A stretch of 34,765 bases of DNA from Planctomycetota bacterium (GCA_003671075.1 QWPT01000028.1:1-34765), one strand, 5' to 3'; shown: positions 28,403 through 34,765, counted from the stretch's first letter. Made by a program: numbers and translations. Notes: generated by a model from the sequence alone, not told the origin.

Positions 28403-28413
28403 CTCCGTCCCAT

Positions 28414-28486
28414 TCCCCTGTAGCTCAATTGGTAGAGCGGGCGGCTGTTAACCGCCAGGTTACTGGTTCAAGTCCAGTCGGGGGAG
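28414..28486 (+). tRNA. tRNA-Asn (GTT)
   Basis: A complete 73-nt cloverleaf. The acceptor stem pairs TCCCCTG with CGGGGGA, the discriminator base is G and no CCA is encoded. The D-arm is GCTC..GAGC, the anticodon stem GGCGG/CCGCC carries loop CTGTTAA with anticodon GTT, and the T-arm contains GGTTCAAGTCC. The last seven bases are also the left edge of the large direct repeat. A strong terminator follows at once. Confidence 0.97.
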
Positions 28487-28489
28487 TTC

Positions 28490-28521
28490 AACCGGTCGGC
28501 CTCTCGCGAGGTCGACCGGTT
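28490..28521 (+). terminator. tRNA-Asn terminator
   Basis: AACCGGTCG (28490-28498) pairs perfectly with CGACCGGTT (28513-28521). The inner GCCTC/GAGGT pairs extend the stem to a TCGC loop, and TTGTTT follows. It belongs to the repeated block. Confidence 0.9.
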
Positions 28522-28526
28522 TGTTT

Positions 28527-28793
28527 ACAGGCTGATGAGGGTGAAACCCCCTGCTGCCGCGCCGTGGCGGGGGTTGGGCGCTCTCGCCTTTGTGGAGAGA
28601 GCGAAGGCCGCCGATCCGAACGGCGGCGAAACGGGCGAAACCCCGCCTTGATCTCACGCGCTCTCTGGACTGGTTCACAGCCTTCCGAGATCAGGGGGTT
28701 GATTGAAACGGTCGCACGCTCGCGGCTCGCTGCGGAGTGTCGGCCGCGCGCACCAATGAAAGCGCGCCGTCTCGCGCGTGCGACTCCGTGGCA
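28527..28793 (+). other. Hairpin-rich stretch without clear gene (copy 1)
   Basis: About 270 nt with several strong stems: GCTCTC/GAGAGC (28580-28612 area), GCCGCCG/CGGCGGC (around 28608-28628) and GATCTC/GAGATC (28650-28693 area). A 38-codon frame (28535-28651) ends in GETGETPP but lacks a ribosome site. It could be a leader, a structured RNA or decayed DNA. The stretch appears unchanged in copy 2. Confidence 0.35.
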
Positions 28794-28807
28794 TACTTCC
28801 CGCCGAC

Positions 28808-28948
28808 ATGCTCCGAACGGTCCCCATTTCGATCGAGTCTTTCGAGGCCGCCGTCGGTCAGGCACTTCGAAGGGAGCCGGTCCAGAACCAGCTGCCGTGG
28901 GTTCGATGTCGGGCACATGTCGAACGAGTGATGCAGATATCATTCTGA
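28808..28948 (+). CDS. Possible 46-residue protein (copy 1)
   Basis: A short frame beginning MLRTVPISIESFEAAVGQAL with normal-looking amphipathic content and one Cys. A TACTTC box ends 8 nt before the ATG, matching the leaderless pattern of other genes here. The stop is 40 nt before the lipoprotein gene. No family is recognised. It could be a remnant. Confidence 0.35.
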   Translation: MLRTVPISIESFEAAVGQALRREPVQNQLPWVRCRAHVERVMQISF

Positions 28949-28988
28949 GTGCGCGCTTTCGAACTGGATCACCAGAGGATCGACACCC

Positions 28989-29267
28989 ATGCGCCACATG
29001 ACCATGCTCACGCTCGTCGCGTCACCCTGCATCGTTCTCGCGATGGGCGGCTGCTTCGGCAAGCACCCCGGGCCATGGCGCGCAGCGTCACCCACAGACC
29101 TCGAGACACTTCGCGATCACTACAAGATCGAGACCGCGAACCGCGACATCGTGCGGCGGGATGTTTCGGTCTGGGTCATCGTGCCGGCTTCGGGCTACCC
29201 TGAATGGGGCGTCAAGCGTGAAGACGGCTCTGTGCAGATCGTCGCGCCGGATAAGTCGCGGCACTGA
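28989..29267 (+). CDS. Small lipoprotein, hypothetical (copy 1)
   Basis: A 92-residue protein. A short signal peptide ends in LAMGGC, so Cys22 is the likely lipidation site, although Met at -3 is unusual for a lipobox. The mature part is about 70 residues, polar, and contains ETANRDIVRRDVSVWVIVP. AGAGGA lies 9 nt before the ATG. It stands directly upstream of the Fic gene, separated from it by a terminator, so the two have separate transcripts. Function unknown. The second copy at 33026-33304 encodes the same protein. Confidence 0.7.
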   Translation: MRHMTMLTLVASPCIVLAMGGCFGKHPGPWRAASPTDLETLRDHYKIETANRDIVRRDVSVWVIVPASGYPEWGVKREDGSVQIVAPDKSRH

Positions 29268-29330
29268 GATCCGTTTCTGCTCGCCGCATCTCGGTCGATT
29301 GGTGAGCGCACGGGTTCGAAATCGAAGGAA

Positions 29331-29356
29331 GGCCCGCCTCGACGTCGAGGCGGGCC
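29331..29356 (+). terminator. Lipoprotein terminator (copy 1)
   Basis: GGCCCGCCTCG pairs with CGAGGCGGGCC around ACGT and is followed by CTTTCGTTGACTG. The hairpin and its right flank recur at 33368-33393 and at the window end. Confidence 0.88.
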
Positions 29357-29410
29357 CTTTCGTTGACTGGAGCCCCCAAGGCGCGAAGTCAAGGGCGTTT
29401 CCTCCACGGA

Positions 29411-29439
29411 TTGACTAGGAAGCGATCGTTTCCTAGAAT
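29411..29439 (+). promoter_or_regulatory. Fic promoter with embedded 22-bp palindrome (copy 1)
   Basis: TTGACT (29411-29416), a 17-nt spacer, then TAGAAT (29434-29439). A near-perfect palindrome with half-sites CTAGGAA and TTCCTAG spans 29415-29436. It covers the spacer and overlaps both promoter boxes, with only one mismatched pair near the centre (CGATCG core). Binding there would block RNA polymerase. Confidence 0.8.
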
Positions 29440-29465
29440 GCCACCCAGAGAAAGGAACGCTTCCG

Positions 29466-30638
29466 ATGCCGCGCACCACCGGCAACTACCGCAACTCCAC
29501 CGTCGCCGGCGAGACCGTGCGCGCGTTCGTTCCGGCCACCCTGCCCCCTGACGGTCCGCCGCTCCGCGTCGAGGGGCCCATCGACGCCGCCTGTGCGCGC
29601 GCCATGGCGGCCGTCGGCCGCCTGGAGGTCGCCGCGAGCCTCGTGCCAAGCACCGAGTGGTTCCTCTACGGCTTCGTCCGGAAGGAGGCGGTGCTGACCT
29701 CGCAGATCGAGGGCACCGAGGCCACCCTGCGCGACGTGCTGGAGTTCGAGGCGACCGACCGCACCGCGCATGAGGACGACGTGGCGGAGGTCTGCAACTA
29801 CGTCGAGGCGCTGACCTACGCGCGCCGCGAGCTTGCGAAGCCGAAGGGGCTGCCGCTGAGCGCGCGCCTGCTCTGCGAGGCGCACCGGCGTCTCATGCGG
29901 GATGCAGGCACCCGTCGCGGCGGCGACAAGAAGCCTGGCACGATCCGAACGAGCCAGAACTGGGTCGGAGGCACGCGGCCCGGAAACGCGCGCTTCGTGC
30001 CCCCTCCGGCCGATGCGGTGCCGGGGCTGCTCGCCGACCTCGACCGCTGGATCCACGGGCGCGACCCGCTTCCGGCGCTCGTCAAGGCCGGGCTGGCGCA
30101 CGTGCAGTTCGAGACGATCCACCCCTTCCTGGACGGCAACGGCCGGATCGGGCGCCTGCTCATCACCCTGCTCCTCGAGCACTGGGGCGTGATGCGCTCG
30201 CCCATCCTGTACCTGAGCCACTCGTTCAAGCGCCACCAGCGCGAGTACTACGACCGGCTCTCGGCCGTGCGCACCGACGGCGACTGGGAGGGCTGGACCC
30301 GGTTCTACCTGGCGTGTGTCGACGAGGCCGCCGAGGACGGCGTCTCAGTCGCCCAGCGCATCTTCGCGCTCACGGCCAAGGACCGCGGCCGGCTCATGTC
30401 GCACACGGGCGCCACCGTGGCTGCGATCCACCTGCTCGACCTGCTGCCGTCGAACCCCATCGTGACGGTGCCGAGGGCCGCGGCGCTGCTGGGCGCCACC
30501 GCACCAACCGCGCGCAAGGCGGTCGAGGTGCTGGAAGAGATCGGCGTCCTGCACGAGACCAGCGGCAGGCAGCGCGACCGCGTCTACGCCTACCAGGCGT
30601 ACCTGCAGGCGCTCACGGCGGACGAGCGGCGCGGGTAG
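29466..30638 (+). CDS. Fic-family AMP-transferase with C-terminal winged helix (copy 1)
   Basis: A 390-residue Fic protein. The catalytic motif HPFLDGNGRIGR (219-230) is intact, with catalytic His219, metal-binding Asp223 and phosphate-binding Arg227/Arg230. The flap lies near 163-181. An N-terminal inhibitory motif TSQIEG (78-83, Glu82) fits the (S/T)xxxE(G/N) pattern, so this is a self-inhibited class II Fic that needs no separate antitoxin. Residues about 325-380 form a winged helix, so the protein may bind DNA, possibly its own palindromic promoter. Fic proteins usually transfer AMP to a target protein. AAAGGA lies about 10 nt before the ATG. Confidence 0.93.
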   Translation: MPRTTGNYRNSTVAGETVRAFVPATLPPDGPPLRVEGPIDAACARAMAAVGRLEVAASLVPSTEWFLYGFVRKEAVLTSQIEGTEATLRDVLEFEATDRTAHEDDVAEVCNYVEALTYARRELAKPKGLPLSARLLCEAHRRLMRDAGTRRGGDKKPGTIRTSQNWVGGTRPGNARFVPPPADAVPGLLADLDRWIHGRDPLPALVKAGLAHVQFETIHPFLDGNGRIGRLLITLLLEHWGVMRSPILYLSHSFKRHQREYYDRLSAVRTDGDWEGWTRFYLACVDEAAEDGVSVAQRIFALTAKDRGRLMSHTGATVAAIHLLDLLPSNPIVTVPRAAALLGATAPTARKAVEVLEEIGVLHETSGRQRDRVYAYQAYLQALTADERRG

Positions 30639-30826
30639 CAGAACTGGGGTTTGAAGTCGTCTCGTCCGGGGACGTCACTTCTCTGTGTAAGGTCCTGTGG
30701 CACAGCGTGTGCCCGTGGAAACGAGAGGCTCGCTCATCTGAGGGCGTTGGCACCCTTCGTGGGAACGCTCCGTTCGTCCTACCAAACCGATGCCCCGGGC
30801 GACCGCCACCCTTCTCTCCGCTGCGC

Positions 30827-31759
30827 TCAACGTCTTTCGAGCCGTGCGCGGACTTCGGAGATCTTCGCTCGCTCAACCGTCATCCAGGTCCCGAAGATCG
30901 CACCGCAGATTCCGAGGATCGATCCGCCGATGCCGCCAATGAGCCCCCACATGCTCCCGTCATTCGGGAACCAGGCCTGAAGGACGCTGAACAAGCCGAT
31001 GCAGGCGGGAAGCACAACGCCGATGCCCCAGAAGAGGCCGAGCACGCGCTTGCGGCGCTGCGCGGCATACAGCTGAGCCAGTTCCGCCGAGCCCGCCGCG
31101 TCCATCGGCTCGGGCTCGGAGAGGGTGCGCCGAAGGCTGCGGGGAAGGATGGCGAGCACGAACCCGAAGACCGACCCGAAGACGACGAGCGAGAAAATCC
31201 ACCGCGAACGCTCGACTTCCGCATAGGCGACCCGCGCGGCCTCGGGGTCGATCGCCGAGTCGCCCGGGTACGGGCCGACGCCGAAGGGCAGGAGTCCGCG
31301 TGCCGCGATTGCCGCCAGGATCAGGACGAACAGCGTGATCGGCACCGCCCACATGGCGCGGGTCACGGGGCTCGTGCGTTCACGGTTCACGAGCGACGCC
31401 GTGCGCACGCCGCCCGAAGCGGATCCGCTGCCGACCGTCCATCCCCAGTACGGGTTCTTCGCCACGATCGCGGGCATCGCGAGGAAGAACCACAGCGGGA
31501 AGAACCACGGCCACCAGAAGCCCGCGATGACCATCGCGAAGTTGAACCGCAGTCCGGTCAGGACCAGTCCGACCCAGATCGCAAGCAGCGCGGCGGTGCT
31601 CATCGCGAGCGTGAGCAGCATCCCGCGCGCCTTGATGCGCGCCGAGTCGTCGGCTGCGCGGTTCGGCACGAGCGCCGCGAACACGAGCGGGAAGAGCAGC
31701 ATCACCGGGACGAAGATGAGCATGAACAAGCGGCCGAGCGTGATGAAGGGATCCGACAT
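30827..31759 (-). CDS. Multi-pass membrane protein beside YtrA-type regulator
   Basis: A 310-residue protein with about seven hydrophobic segments (near 10-30, 47-68, 74-97, 135-155, 187-206, 240-262 and 268-290) and charged loops. I do not recognise the family with confidence; it resembles DUF1648/SdpI-neighbourhood proteins only in general layout. GGAGA lies 6 nt before ATG 31759. It starts 45 nt after the GntR gene, on the same strand, so it is probably the regulated partner. The pair lies between the two Fic repeat copies. Confidence 0.75.
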   Translation of the reverse strand: MSDPFITLGRLFMLIFVPVMLLFPLVFAALVPNRAADDSARIKARGMLLTLAMSTAALLAIWVGLVLTGLRFNFAMVIAGFWWPWFFPLWFFLAMPAIVAKNPYWGWTVGSGSASGGVRTASLVNRERTSPVTRAMWAVPITLFVLILAAIAARGLLPFGVGPYPGDSAIDPEAARVAYAEVERSRWIFSLVVFGSVFGFVLAILPRSLRRTLSEPEPMDAAGSAELAQLYAAQRRKRVLGLFWGIGVVLPACIGLFSVLQAWFPNDGSMWGLIGGIGGSILGICGAIFGTWMTVERAKISEVRARLERR

Positions 31760-31804
31760 GATGGGTCTCCGTGATCTGGTGTTTGAAACGGCGTGTCGTG
31801 CGGT

Positions 31805-32194
31805 CTAGGCGTGCTTCCACAGGCGCTCGATCTGGCGTGCCGCCATGGATTCCGCGGCCTCACGGGTGAGTCCCGCGAGCTTGGCATCGCCGAGCGCGGC
31901 GGCGATGCCTGCCTCGATGCGCTTGCGTTCCTCGACCTTGGGGCCCGCGGCGCGCTCGACTGTGGCGATGACGATGGTGCCGCGGCCGCGCACGGAAGCG
32001 AACAGCCCGGCGTCCGTGAGGTCGCGGTAGGCGCGAGCGACGGTGTTCAGGTTGATGCCCAGGTCCGCGGCGAGCTGCCGGACCGGCGGCAGTTCATCGC
32101 CTTCCGCGAGCTGCCCCGCGGCGATGAGCCCGCGAAGGCCGGCCACGAGCTGGTCGTGGATCGGGACAGGGCTGGCGAGCGAGATCGTGAGCAT
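31805..32194 (-). CDS. GntR-family (YtrA type) transcriptional regulator
   Basis: A 129-residue regulator. The winged helix-turn-helix at about residues 10-75 includes PIHDQLVAGLRGLIAAGQL and the recognition stretch INLNTVARAYRDL. Only a short C-terminal helical region follows, as in the YtrA subfamily, which has no ligand-binding domain. Such proteins repress small operons for membrane transport or stress. ATG 32194 is chosen because the -10 box TATGAT ends 12 nt upstream; ATG 32203 would precede the predicted transcript start. The gene is the first of a two-gene operon with the membrane protein. Confidence 0.88.
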   Translation of the reverse strand: MLTISLASPVPIHDQLVAGLRGLIAAGQLAEGDELPPVRQLAADLGINLNTVARAYRDLTDAGLFASVRGRGTIVIATVERAAGPKVEERKRIEAGIAAALGDAKLAGLTREAAESMAARQIERLWKHA

Positions 32195-32202
32195 GATGGC
32201 CA

Positions 32203-32223
32203 TTGTATCATACGTTGCTACAA
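32203..32223 (-). promoter_or_regulatory. Palindromic operator and promoter of the GntR gene
   Basis: Half-sites TTGTATCA and TGCTACAA (plus strand) form a 21-bp dyad with one mismatch. The minus-strand -10 box TATGAT (32212-32207) is inside it. This is the expected position for autorepression by the YtrA-type protein. No clear -35 at the usual distance. Confidence 0.6.
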
Positions 32224-32516
32224 TGGCAAGTGCGATTGGGTTGGTGCGGCGGCGCCTTCGGGAACCCCGGTGCTCCACGAGGGACACCGGACCTGAACGG
32301 GTCTTTCGCATGGGCGCGCGGGTCCTGCGGGAACCTGATCCGAGGTCGCGGGTTTCGGGGGTGCCCGGAGCGTGAGCGATGCGTTTGGGGCGTGGTTGGC
32401 TTCGCGCTCTTTGCCCCTACGTTTCGATCGGGCCCCTCACGCCCGTTGCGAGGAAATGGGTCTTCGCCCCCTCTGGCGCGGTCAGAACGCCATCTAAAGT
32501 TTGGATCCGTTTCGCT
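32224..32516. other. Gene-free spacer before repeat copy 2
   Basis: About 290 bp with no convincing gene. Reading frames across it run into the repeat and include the tRNA-end translation VQPVGLSRGR, so they are spurious. No tRNA body precedes copy 2. Confidence 0.5.
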
Positions 32517-32526
32517 GGGGGAGTTC

Positions 32527-32558
32527 AACCGGTCGGCCTCTCGCGAGGTCGACCGGTT
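32527..32558 (+). terminator. Terminator hairpin (copy 2 of tRNA terminator)
   Basis: Same hairpin as 28490-28521. It has no tRNA to terminate here, so it is either carried passively or insulates the module from upstream transcription. Confidence 0.8.
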
Positions 32559-32844
32559 TGTTTACAGGCTGATGAGGGTGAAACCCCCTGCTGCCGCGCC
32601 GTGGCGGGGGTTGGGCGCTCTCGCCTTTGTGGAGAGAGCGAAGGCCGCCGATCCGAACGGCGGCGAAACGGGCGAAACCCCGCCTTGATCTCACGCGCTC
32701 TCTGGACTGGTTCACAGCCTTCCGAGATCAGGGGGTTGATTGAAACGGTCGCACGCTCGCGGCTCGCTGCGGAGTGTCGGCCGCGCGCACCAATGAAAGC
32801 GCGCCGTCTCGCGCGTGCGACTCCGTGGCATACTTCCCGCCGAC

Positions 32845-32985
32845 ATGCTCCGAACGGTCCCCATTTCGATCGAGTCTTTCGAGGCCGCCGTCGGTCAGGC
32901 ACTTCGAAGGGAGCCGGTCCAGAACCAGCTGCCGTGGGTTCGATGTCGGGCACATGTCGAACGAGTGATGCAGATATCATTCTGA
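32845..32985 (+). CDS. Possible 46-residue protein (copy 2)
   Basis: Identical to the short frame at 28808-28948, with the same upstream TACTTC box 8 nt before the ATG. Unknown function. Confidence 0.33.
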   Translation: MLRTVPISIESFEAAVGQALRREPVQNQLPWVRCRAHVERVMQISF

Positions 32986-33025
32986 GTGCGCGCTTTCGAA
33001 CTGGATCACCAGAGGATCGACACCC

Positions 33026-33304
33026 ATGCGCCACATGACCATGCTCACGCTCGTCGCGTCACCCTGCATCGTTCTCGCGATGGGCGGCTGCTTCGGCAAG
33101 CACCCCGGGCCATGGCGCGCAGCGTCACCCACAGACCTCGAGACACTTCGCGATCACTACAAGATCGAGACCGCGAACCGCGACATCGTGCGGCGGGATG
33201 TTTCGGTCTGGGTCATCGTGCCGGCTTCGGGCTACCCTGAATGGGGCGTCAAGCGTGAAGACGGCTCTGTGCAGATCGTCGCGCCGGATAAGTCGCGGCA
33301 CTGA
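33026..33304 (+). CDS. Small lipoprotein, hypothetical (copy 2)
   Basis: Encodes the same 92 residues as 28989-29267, with signal peptide and Cys22 in LAMGGC, and the same AGAGGA ribosome site. Two intact identical copies suggest either very recent duplication, ongoing gene conversion or an assembly effect. Confidence 0.7.
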   Translation: MRHMTMLTLVASPCIVLAMGGCFGKHPGPWRAASPTDLETLRDHYKIETANRDIVRRDVSVWVIVPASGYPEWGVKREDGSVQIVAPDKSRH

Positions 33305-33367
33305 GATCCGTTTCTGCTCGCCGCATCTCGGTCGATTGGTGAGCGCACGGGTTCGAAATCGAAGGAA

Positions 33368-33393
33368 GGCCCGCCTCGACGTCGAGGCGGGCC
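33368..33393 (+). terminator. Lipoprotein terminator (copy 2)
   Basis: Same 11-bp GC stem and CTTTCGTTGACTG flank as at 29331-29356. Confidence 0.87.
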
Positions 33394-33447
33394 CTTTCGT
33401 TGACTGGAGCCCCCAAGGCGCGAAGTCAAGGGCGTTTCCTCCACGGA

Positions 33448-33476
33448 TTGACTAGGAAGCGATCGTTTCCTAGAAT
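33448..33476 (+). promoter_or_regulatory. Fic promoter with embedded palindrome (copy 2)
   Basis: TTGACT (33448-33453), 17 nt, TAGAAT (33471-33476). The palindrome CTAGGAA/TTCCTAG lies at 33452-33473. Unchanged from copy 1, so one repressor could control both Fic genes. Confidence 0.78.
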
Positions 33477-33502
33477 GCCACCCAGAGAAAGGAACGCTTC
33501 CG

Positions 33503-34675
33503 ATGCCGCGCACCACCGGCAACTACCGCAACTCCACCGTCGCCGGCGAGACCGTGCGCGCGTTCGTTCCGGCCACCCTGCCCCCTGACGGTCCGCCGCT
33601 CCGCGTCGAGGGGCCCATCGACGCCGCCTGTGCGCGCGCCATGGCGGCCGTCGGCCGCCTGGAGGTCGCCGCGAGCCTCGTGCCAAGCACCGAGTGGTTC
33701 CTCTACGGCTTCGTCCGGAAGGAGGCGGTGCTGACCTCGCAGATCGAGGGCACCGAGGCCACCCTGCGCGACGTGCTGGAGTTCGAGGCGACCGACCGCA
33801 CCGCGCATGAGGACGACGTGGCGGAGGTCTGCAACTACGTCGAGGCGCTGACCTACGCGCGCCGCGAGCTTGCGAAGCCGAAGGGGCTGCCGCTGAGCGC
33901 GCGCCTGCTCTGCGAGGCGCACCGGCGTCTCATGCGGGATGCAGGCACCCGTCGCGGCGGCGACAAGAAGCCTGGCACGATCCGAACGAGCCAGAACTGG
34001 GTCGGAGGCACGCGGCCCGGAAACGCGCGCTTCGTGCCCCCTCCGGCCGATGCGGTGCCGGGGCTGCTCGCCGACCTCGACCGCTGGATCCACGGGCGCG
34101 ACCCGCTTCCGGCGCTCGTCAAGGCCGGGCTGGCGCACGTGCAGTTCGAGACGATCCACCCCTTCCTGGACGGCAACGGCCGGATCGGGCGCCTGCTCAT
34201 CACCCTGCTCCTCGAGCACTGGGGCGTGATGCGCTCGCCCATCCTGTACCTGAGCCACTCGTTCAAGCGCCACCAGCGCGAGTACTACGACCGGCTCTCG
34301 GCCGTGCGCACCGACGGCGACTGGGAGGGCTGGACCCGGTTCTACCTGGCGTGTGTCGACGAGGCCGCCGAGGACGGCGTCTCAGTCGCCCAGCGCATCT
34401 TCGCGCTCACGGCCAAGGACCGCGGCCGGCTCATGTCGCACACGGGCGCCACCGTGGCTGCGATCCACCTGCTCGACCTGCTGCCGTCGAACCCCATCGT
34501 GACGGTGCCGAGGGCCGCGGCGCTGCTGGGCGCCACCGCACCAACCGCGCGCAAGGCGGTCGAGGTGCTGGAAGAGATCGGCGTCCTGCACGAGACCAGC
34601 GGCAGGCAGCGCGACCGCGTCTACGCCTACCAGGCGTACCTGCAGGCACTCACGGCGGACGAGGGGCGCGGGTAG
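33503..34675 (+). CDS. Fic-family AMP-transferase (copy 2)
   Basis: Same 390-residue length as copy 1 with intact inhibitory motif (Glu82), HPFLDGNGRIGR motif and C-terminal winged helix. The only protein difference is near the C-terminus, Gly in place of Arg at residue 388 (DEGRG versus DERRG). One silent change (GCG to GCA) lies a few codons earlier. Downstream, the sequence runs after about 50 bp into a terminator at the window end. Confidence 0.92.
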   Translation: MPRTTGNYRNSTVAGETVRAFVPATLPPDGPPLRVEGPIDAACARAMAAVGRLEVAASLVPSTEWFLYGFVRKEAVLTSQIEGTEATLRDVLEFEATDRTAHEDDVAEVCNYVEALTYARRELAKPKGLPLSARLLCEAHRRLMRDAGTRRGGDKKPGTIRTSQNWVGGTRPGNARFVPPPADAVPGLLADLDRWIHGRDPLPALVKAGLAHVQFETIHPFLDGNGRIGRLLITLLLEHWGVMRSPILYLSHSFKRHQREYYDRLSAVRTDGDWEGWTRFYLACVDEAAEDGVSVAQRIFALTAKDRGRLMSHTGATVAAIHLLDLLPSNPIVTVPRAAALLGATAPTARKAVEVLEEIGVLHETSGRQRDRVYAYQAYLQALTADEGRG

Positions 34676-34724
34676 CGGGCCTCGGGTTTGAAGCCGGTTC
34701 GACCGGGGAGTTTGGAAGCGAAAC

Positions 34725-34756
34725 AAGGCCCGCCTCGAAGTCGAGGCGGGCCTTTT
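34725..34756 (+). terminator. Fic copy 2 terminator at window end
   Basis: AAGGCCCGCCTCGA pairs with TCGAGGCGGGCCTT around AG and is followed by TTCGTTGACTG to the last base. This is the third occurrence of the same hairpin and flank in the window. Confidence 0.88.
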
Positions 34757-34765
34757 CGTTGACTG

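Follow-up and report, generated by a model that had tools for sequence, protein, structure and literature searches.

A Fic/lipoprotein module on a planctomycete contig lies in a probable composite island of cassettes chained at a tRNA-Asn gene

The stretch analyzed here (the window; QWPT01000028.1:1-34765, 34,765 nucleotides) is the whole of contig C35 in a 113-contig, 3.35-Mb draft genome of an uncultured Planctomycetota bacterium (GCA_003671075.1; G000), and its right-hand end carries two copies of a module containing a putative lipoprotein gene and a gene for a Fic protein. We consider it probable (roughly 0.75) that this region belongs to a composite island, in which transferable cassettes, mostly without a recombinase of their own, are chained to the 3' terminus of a tRNA-Asn gene. 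Recurring junctions and arms, their anchoring at the tRNA gene, recent exchange between genomes, recombinase genes at the same site in relatives, and relics of a recombinase partner within the genus were all observed directly.

The two copies are identical over 2,131 bp (28480-30610 and 32517-34647, plus strand) at an offset of 4,037 bp, as a previous interpretation made without database searches (the sequence-only reading) had it, and each holds the contents listed there: an inverted repeat/terminator, a hairpin-rich stretch, a 46-codon frame, a 92-amino-acid putative lipoprotein, and a 390-amino-acid Fic protein. BLAST aligns the copies over 2,193 bp at 99.5% (28480-30672 and 32517-34709), with no similarity beyond. 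The left edge of copy 1 lies inside the last 8 nucleotides of an intact tRNA-Asn(GTT) gene (28413-28487, plus strand; ARAGORN and Rfam RF00005), which is the only strong tRNA-Asn match in G000; this edge was rightly described as sharp, because the breakpoint sits in the tRNA 3' end. The right edge, said to fade into patchy similarity, is indeed degenerate in copy 1 (30644-30672), yet it is more than a fading: it ends in a junction motif, which is well preserved in copy 2 (34685-34712).

When we used the region as a query against 60 related genomes, two pieces recurred: the stretch that follows the tRNA gene (the right arm, 28481-28711) and the stretch immediately left of copy 2 (32411-32526). 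Within the window's genus both lie mostly 1 to 4 kb downstream of tRNA-Asn, and right arm type 1 is also present in G001, G004, G005, G011, G039, G043, and G059. The junctions share the consensus TTTGAAGCCGTTTCGATCGGGGAGTTC, followed by a hairpin terminator, and their core copies the tRNA-Asn end; when internal junctions are aligned, a left arm ending in AACGCCATCTAAAGTTTGGAAGCCGTTTCGCT leads into the tRNA-end core GGGGAG(TTC) and then into a strong hairpin terminator. In the window, attachment (att)-like sites flank the cassettes at 28480, 32471-32527, and 34685-34712. The first comprises the shared core (GGGGGAGTTC, the tRNA 3' end) and right arm type 1 (28480-28711, plus strand; recurring at 32517-32748), whose terminator hairpin (28490-28521) precedes the hairpin-rich stretch; at the internal junction, the left arm plus core (32411-32527, plus strand, ending in AACGCCATCTAAAGTTTGGATCCGTTTCGCTGGGGGAGTTCA) were defined from a 10-junction alignment with nhmmer E values of 1e-19 to 1e-35. 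Matches with E values down to 1e-35 were found in seven genomes of the genus (G000, G001, G003, G004, G005, G011, and G013), and G004 has at least five successive junctions across 38 kb downstream of its tRNA-Asn gene.

The short junction after fic (TTTGAAGCCGTTTCGATCGGGGAG) is clear in copy 2 and degenerate in copy 1; it also occurs in G004, G087, and L117, and L118 has a weaker, junction-like stretch. With up to three mismatches allowed, the junction pattern occurs once in the window (0 expected in shuffled sequence). Across the order, 20 of 121 genomes have the pattern, compared to none for a reversed control. In other families of the order it is found on the contig and strand of tRNA-Asn, 26 kb downstream of that gene in G119, 67 kb in G132, and 135 kb in G096; in the last, a single-contig genome, 266 bp of tRNA end plus arm are repeated at the far junction with 87% identity. 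These arrays thus have direct repeats at either end and form tandem composites. The left arm might have been the tail of a conserved gene, but its frame (EGIGLHPLWRAQNAI*) is broken in several sites, so it is noncoding. The junction has no Rfam match, and RNAalifold found no conserved structure in a mixed alignment. GTTTACAG/GGTTCACAG motifs recur within the right arm (28522-28711), which also has GCGCTCTC/GAGAGC hairpins; both are seen across families.

In relatives from other families of the order, the site is occupied by large serine recombinases (LSRs). G039, G043, G055, G075, G096, G110, G125, and G132 each have an LSR gene a short way downstream of tRNA-Asn or a junction; the products have the Pfam resolvase, recombinase, and zinc-ribbon domains, and a DUF2924 gene precedes each such LSR gene where we looked for it. 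The best NCBIfam model for the G096 LSR is the SCCmec recombinase CcrB, with a score (162 bits) below the cut-off of 900. DUF2924 relics that lack an LSR are found beside tRNA-Asn in G002 and, weakly, in G004, beside a junction in G004, and 4.2 kb from a junction in G087. We infer that the arrays derive from DUF2924-LSR elements whose recombinase has since been lost in the window's genus.

The 135-kb tRNA-Asn region of G096 (L104-L110, G096:C1:1045000-1184999) contains three DUF2924-LSR units, two of which directly follow the tRNA gene or a degenerate junction; these are full elements in tandem. A third small open reading frame without a Pfam match follows the LSR gene at L110:13493-13912, and likewise the second G096 LSR gene; it may be a constant component of the element. 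Two LSRs of a sister clade (L206 and L210) are encoded shortly downstream of tRNA-Met genes, so tRNA genes in general may be favored by this group of LSRs.

Chained cassettes with their own terminators beside a fixed anchor would also be expected if a tyrosine recombinase drove an integron-like array, an explanation to which we give very little credence. The contigs that carry the arrays in G000, G001, and G004 encode no tyrosine integrase, and none was found in the G119 and G132 islands; the tyrosine recombinases of G096 are of a multicopy type located away from junctions. G000 has only two (PF00589), on other contigs, which are present genus-wide and which we read as XerC and XerD. We found no IntI-type integrase beside the array, unlike in an integron, and it is serine recombinases that occupy the site in relatives. 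The junctions read as a tRNA-end core plus terminator.

Comparison of G000 with G001 points to recent exchange. The two genomes show 66 to 77% DNA identity over a 17-kb syntenic run of genes, but from tRNA-Asn to just past the lipoprotein gene identity is 97 to 100%, a jump which argues that segments were exchanged recently; the breaks are sharp at tRNA-Asn and near a junction. A unit encoding a membrane protein without a family match (30827-31759, minus strand) and a GntR-family regulator (31805-32311, minus strand; Pfam PF00392), which is the next cassette in the chain, matches two places in G001, with 93% and 98 to 99% DNA identity. Between G087 and G000, seryl-tRNA synthetase is 73% identical, while fic is 92% identical. 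The sequence-only reading was thus right to place the blocks in a family of related cassettes, and members of this family have been exchanged recently.

In the mechanism we propose, an LSR with its DUF2924 partner would recombine a circular element, at its att site, with the tRNA-Asn 3' end; the element would restore the last tRNA bases and bring its own terminator, leaving the tRNA functional, and repeated insertions would give stacked elements. In the window's genus, where the recombinase would have been lost, a cassette would consist of a junction (left arm plus tRNA-like core) and a right arm, the latter being a terminator plus a presumed remnant of the front of the recombinase operon. Present-day spread would occur via a recombinase acting in trans or via homologous recombination between shared arms. 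The module itself would be a lipoprotein cassette plus a SoFic-type AMP-transferase cassette, doubled by recent duplication or homogenization (or by an assembly path).

Several points weigh against this proposal. The recombinase domain PF07508 was detected in none of 12 genomes of the genus (the window's and 11 others; drafts are incomplete), so that site-specific movement there today is hypothetical, and we observed neither a circular form nor the reaction. The tRNA-Asn-linked proteins cluster in the LSR tree without forming a single clade (5 changes, compared to a shuffled mean of 8.0; 17 of 500 shuffles were as low). Some junctions are weak: that after fic copy 1 has an nhmmer E value of 0.13, though it sits where the strong junction follows fic in copy 2, G004, and G087, and the lipoprotein/fic boundary was read by eye. 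Sharing at 97 to 99% could also be explained by homologous recombination. The cassettes may thus be fossils of an old LSR element, now exchanged solely by homologous recombination through the tRNA gene, arms, and shared genes, a view that we rate at somewhat less than even odds. The missing LSR, the DUF2924 relics, the degenerate junctions, and the homology offered by shared arms of 200 to 300 bp favor it; it is harder to reconcile with a high-identity G000/G001 segment that spans tRNA-Asn to just past the lipoprotein gene and excludes flanking core genes, or with a 92%-identical Fic gene beside tRNA-Asn in another genus, behind a different upstream gene. More tentatively still, and as something we would on balance bet against, the Phycisphaerae may possess an exchange platform at tRNA-Asn resembling the staphylococcal cassette chromosome (SCC), where small recombinase-less cassettes, each bearing a terminator and a tRNA-like junction of its own, are traded across species and even genera by a serine recombinase in trans.

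The sequence-only reading treated the lipoprotein and the Fic enzyme as a paired, unfamiliar system, and indeed the two genes are adjacent and were duplicated together in the window. Outside this contig, however, a search of relatives showed that the pairing is not kept. Fic homologues (84 to 94% identical in protein sequence) occur without the lipoprotein in G004, G087, L117, and L118, where their upstream neighbors differ from those in the window and where fic ends at a junction or junction-like stretch. Conversely, G001 has the lipoprotein without an adjacent Fic gene: its homology to the window stops at the equivalent of 29298, and a junction-like stretch, another right arm, and a GntR gene follow. 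Among 80 further genomes sampled from the family, none had the lipoprotein, which matched no protein family. A genuine two-gene system of a lipoprotein and a self-inhibited Fic enzyme, kept in several copies, is therefore largely refuted, and we regard it as highly improbable.

The lipoprotein and Fic stretches also bear different terminator/arm types. Between them lies a degenerate junction (29268-29313, plus strand, beginning GATCCGTTTCTGCTCG), followed by a right arm type 2 remnant with a terminator hairpin (29314-29369, plus strand), which opens the Fic cassette; positions 29329-29369 match, at 93% identity, the arm that immediately follows tRNA-Asn in G087, a member of another genus. Arm type 2 starts again after copy 2 (34724-34765, plus strand, to the contig end), where 42 bp match the same G087 arm at 97.6% and mark the start of a next cassette. 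Given the two arm types and the separate occurrence of the genes elsewhere, sequence comparison indicates that the lipoprotein and Fic genes are two neighboring cassettes whose pairing is incidental.

In copy 1, the 46-codon frame, a putative coding sequence read from the DNA, occupies 28808-28948; G001 identity over it is uninformative on coding, because it lies in the recently exchanged block. The putative lipoprotein gene lies at 28989-29267 and fic at 29466-30638 (all plus strand). The corresponding parts of copy 2 (plus strand) are the lipoprotein gene at 33026-33304, arm type 2 at 33351-33406, and fic at 33503-34675.

Whether the exact duplicate exists in one genome is a separate question, on which the interpretation as a cassette array does not depend. 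An assembly artefact, which the sequence-only reading named as its main alternative, deserves to be taken seriously, and we put it not far short of an even chance that the array is real and the module single in the genome or strain. In that case, two genotypes (tRNA-module-B and B-module-next cassette) would have been joined through a collapsed 2.1-kb repeat. We found no 16S rRNA gene in G000, which suggests a draft metagenome-assembled genome (MAG), although the same search overlooked 16S in 5 of the 14 genomes that served as controls; an exact 2,131-bp repeat within one contig is hard for short reads to yield; and the contig stops 118 bp past the repeat. On the other side, the 3' ends of the copies differ (10 mismatches in 62 bp, with distinct junctions), so that at least two module-bearing loci were sampled, and tandem arm repeats are common in this array family.

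Cis-mobilizable elements (CIMEs) have been described in streptococci, mostly with tyrosine integrases. CIMEs and accretion (reviewed in PMC5704250) resemble what we see, in that att-flanked elements without a recombinase are stacked at one site; in the window, cassettes have att-like flanks and no recombinase of their own (PF07508 is absent, and PF00589 is encoded on other contigs only). Here, however, the complete relatives rely on a serine recombinase, the site is a tRNA gene, and cassettes of just 1 to 4 kb are frequent. Similarly, in tRNA genomic islands the tRNA 3' end is regenerated and a displaced fragment lies at the far end, as here, but the Islander paper attributes tRNA insertion to tyrosine integrases (PMC4383910), whereas we find serine recombinases. 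For SCC, composite islands, pseudo-SCC elements, and tandem amplification of SCCmec at its site have been reported (PMC6243372). The likeness extends to a conserved gene that stays intact although insertion occurs at its 3' end, to att sites in the form of direct repeats, to full elements with a serine recombinase alongside pseudo-elements that lack one, to composites in tandem, and to restriction-modification cargo. The differences are the target (the tRNA-Asn 3' end rather than orfX/rlmH), the Planctomycetota host, the DUF2924 partner, LSRs of relatives that score below the CcrB cut-off, and a genus without a detected recombinase; since the insertions target another gene and the LSRs fall short of the Ccr cut-off, we do not file these arrays as SCC. 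In PubMed Central we recognized no account of planctomycete tRNA-Asn islands or cassette arrays, or of DUF2924 with serine recombinases. If our interpretation holds, the SCC lifestyle (a serine recombinase, stacking at a gene end, and many recombinase-less members) would extend to planctomycetes, and to a tRNA gene, a class of site usually credited to tyrosine integrases. The junction plus right arm would also serve as a marker for variable regions in poorly known MAGs; regions so marked include restriction-modification, PLD/SNF2 helicase, viperin-like, and SoFic genes.

As for the Fic protein, it matches the known SoFic family and so is less unfamiliar than had been supposed. It has Pfam Fic_N and Fic domains and a winged helix-turn-helix-like C terminus, and its TSQIEG and HPFLDGNGRIGR motifs conform to the class II patterns [ST]xxxE[GN] (N-terminal) and HxFx[DE]GNGRxxR. 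The PADLOC SoFic model matches over its full length (370 bits, 3.3e-111, residues 17 to 384), although the NCBIfam SoFic equivalog score (144 bits) is below the cut-off of 550; SoFic is among the solved structures of its relatives. SoFic has been reported as a single-gene anti-phage protein, with a small antitoxin gene, AS1, downstream in the Escherichia coli case (PMC12249575). The full-length match and the Fic and inhibitory motifs agree with that protein; inspection by eye revealed no AS1-like gene downstream of fic, where a junction starts 6 bp past the stop codon. By analogy, a role in defense against phage may be supposed. Upstream of fic, a near-palindrome (CTAGGAAGCGATCGTTTCCTAG; 29415-29436, plus strand) lies between a −35-like TTGACT and a −10-like TAGAAT and is likely a fic operator/promoter subject to autoregulation by the C-terminal helix-turn-helix; closely similar sequences occur in L031, L088, and L117.

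Other cargo near junctions includes type I restriction-modification genes (L090 and L201), a PLD/SNF2 helicase (L092), and a viperin-like protein (L098), and in G004 BlaI/BlaR1, a beta-lactamase-fold protein, S41 and S8 peptidases, and an aminotransferase. In L117, from a lake MAG, BlaR1/BlaI-like genes recognized by eye (L117:1683-3170) lie just upstream of fic and resemble genes in the tRNA-proximal G004 cassette. In L201, an IMG/VR contig listed as viral (IMGVR_UViG_3300047678_000727), the type I restriction-modification set is followed by a junction and right arm; this contig may represent a chromosomal island rather than a virus.

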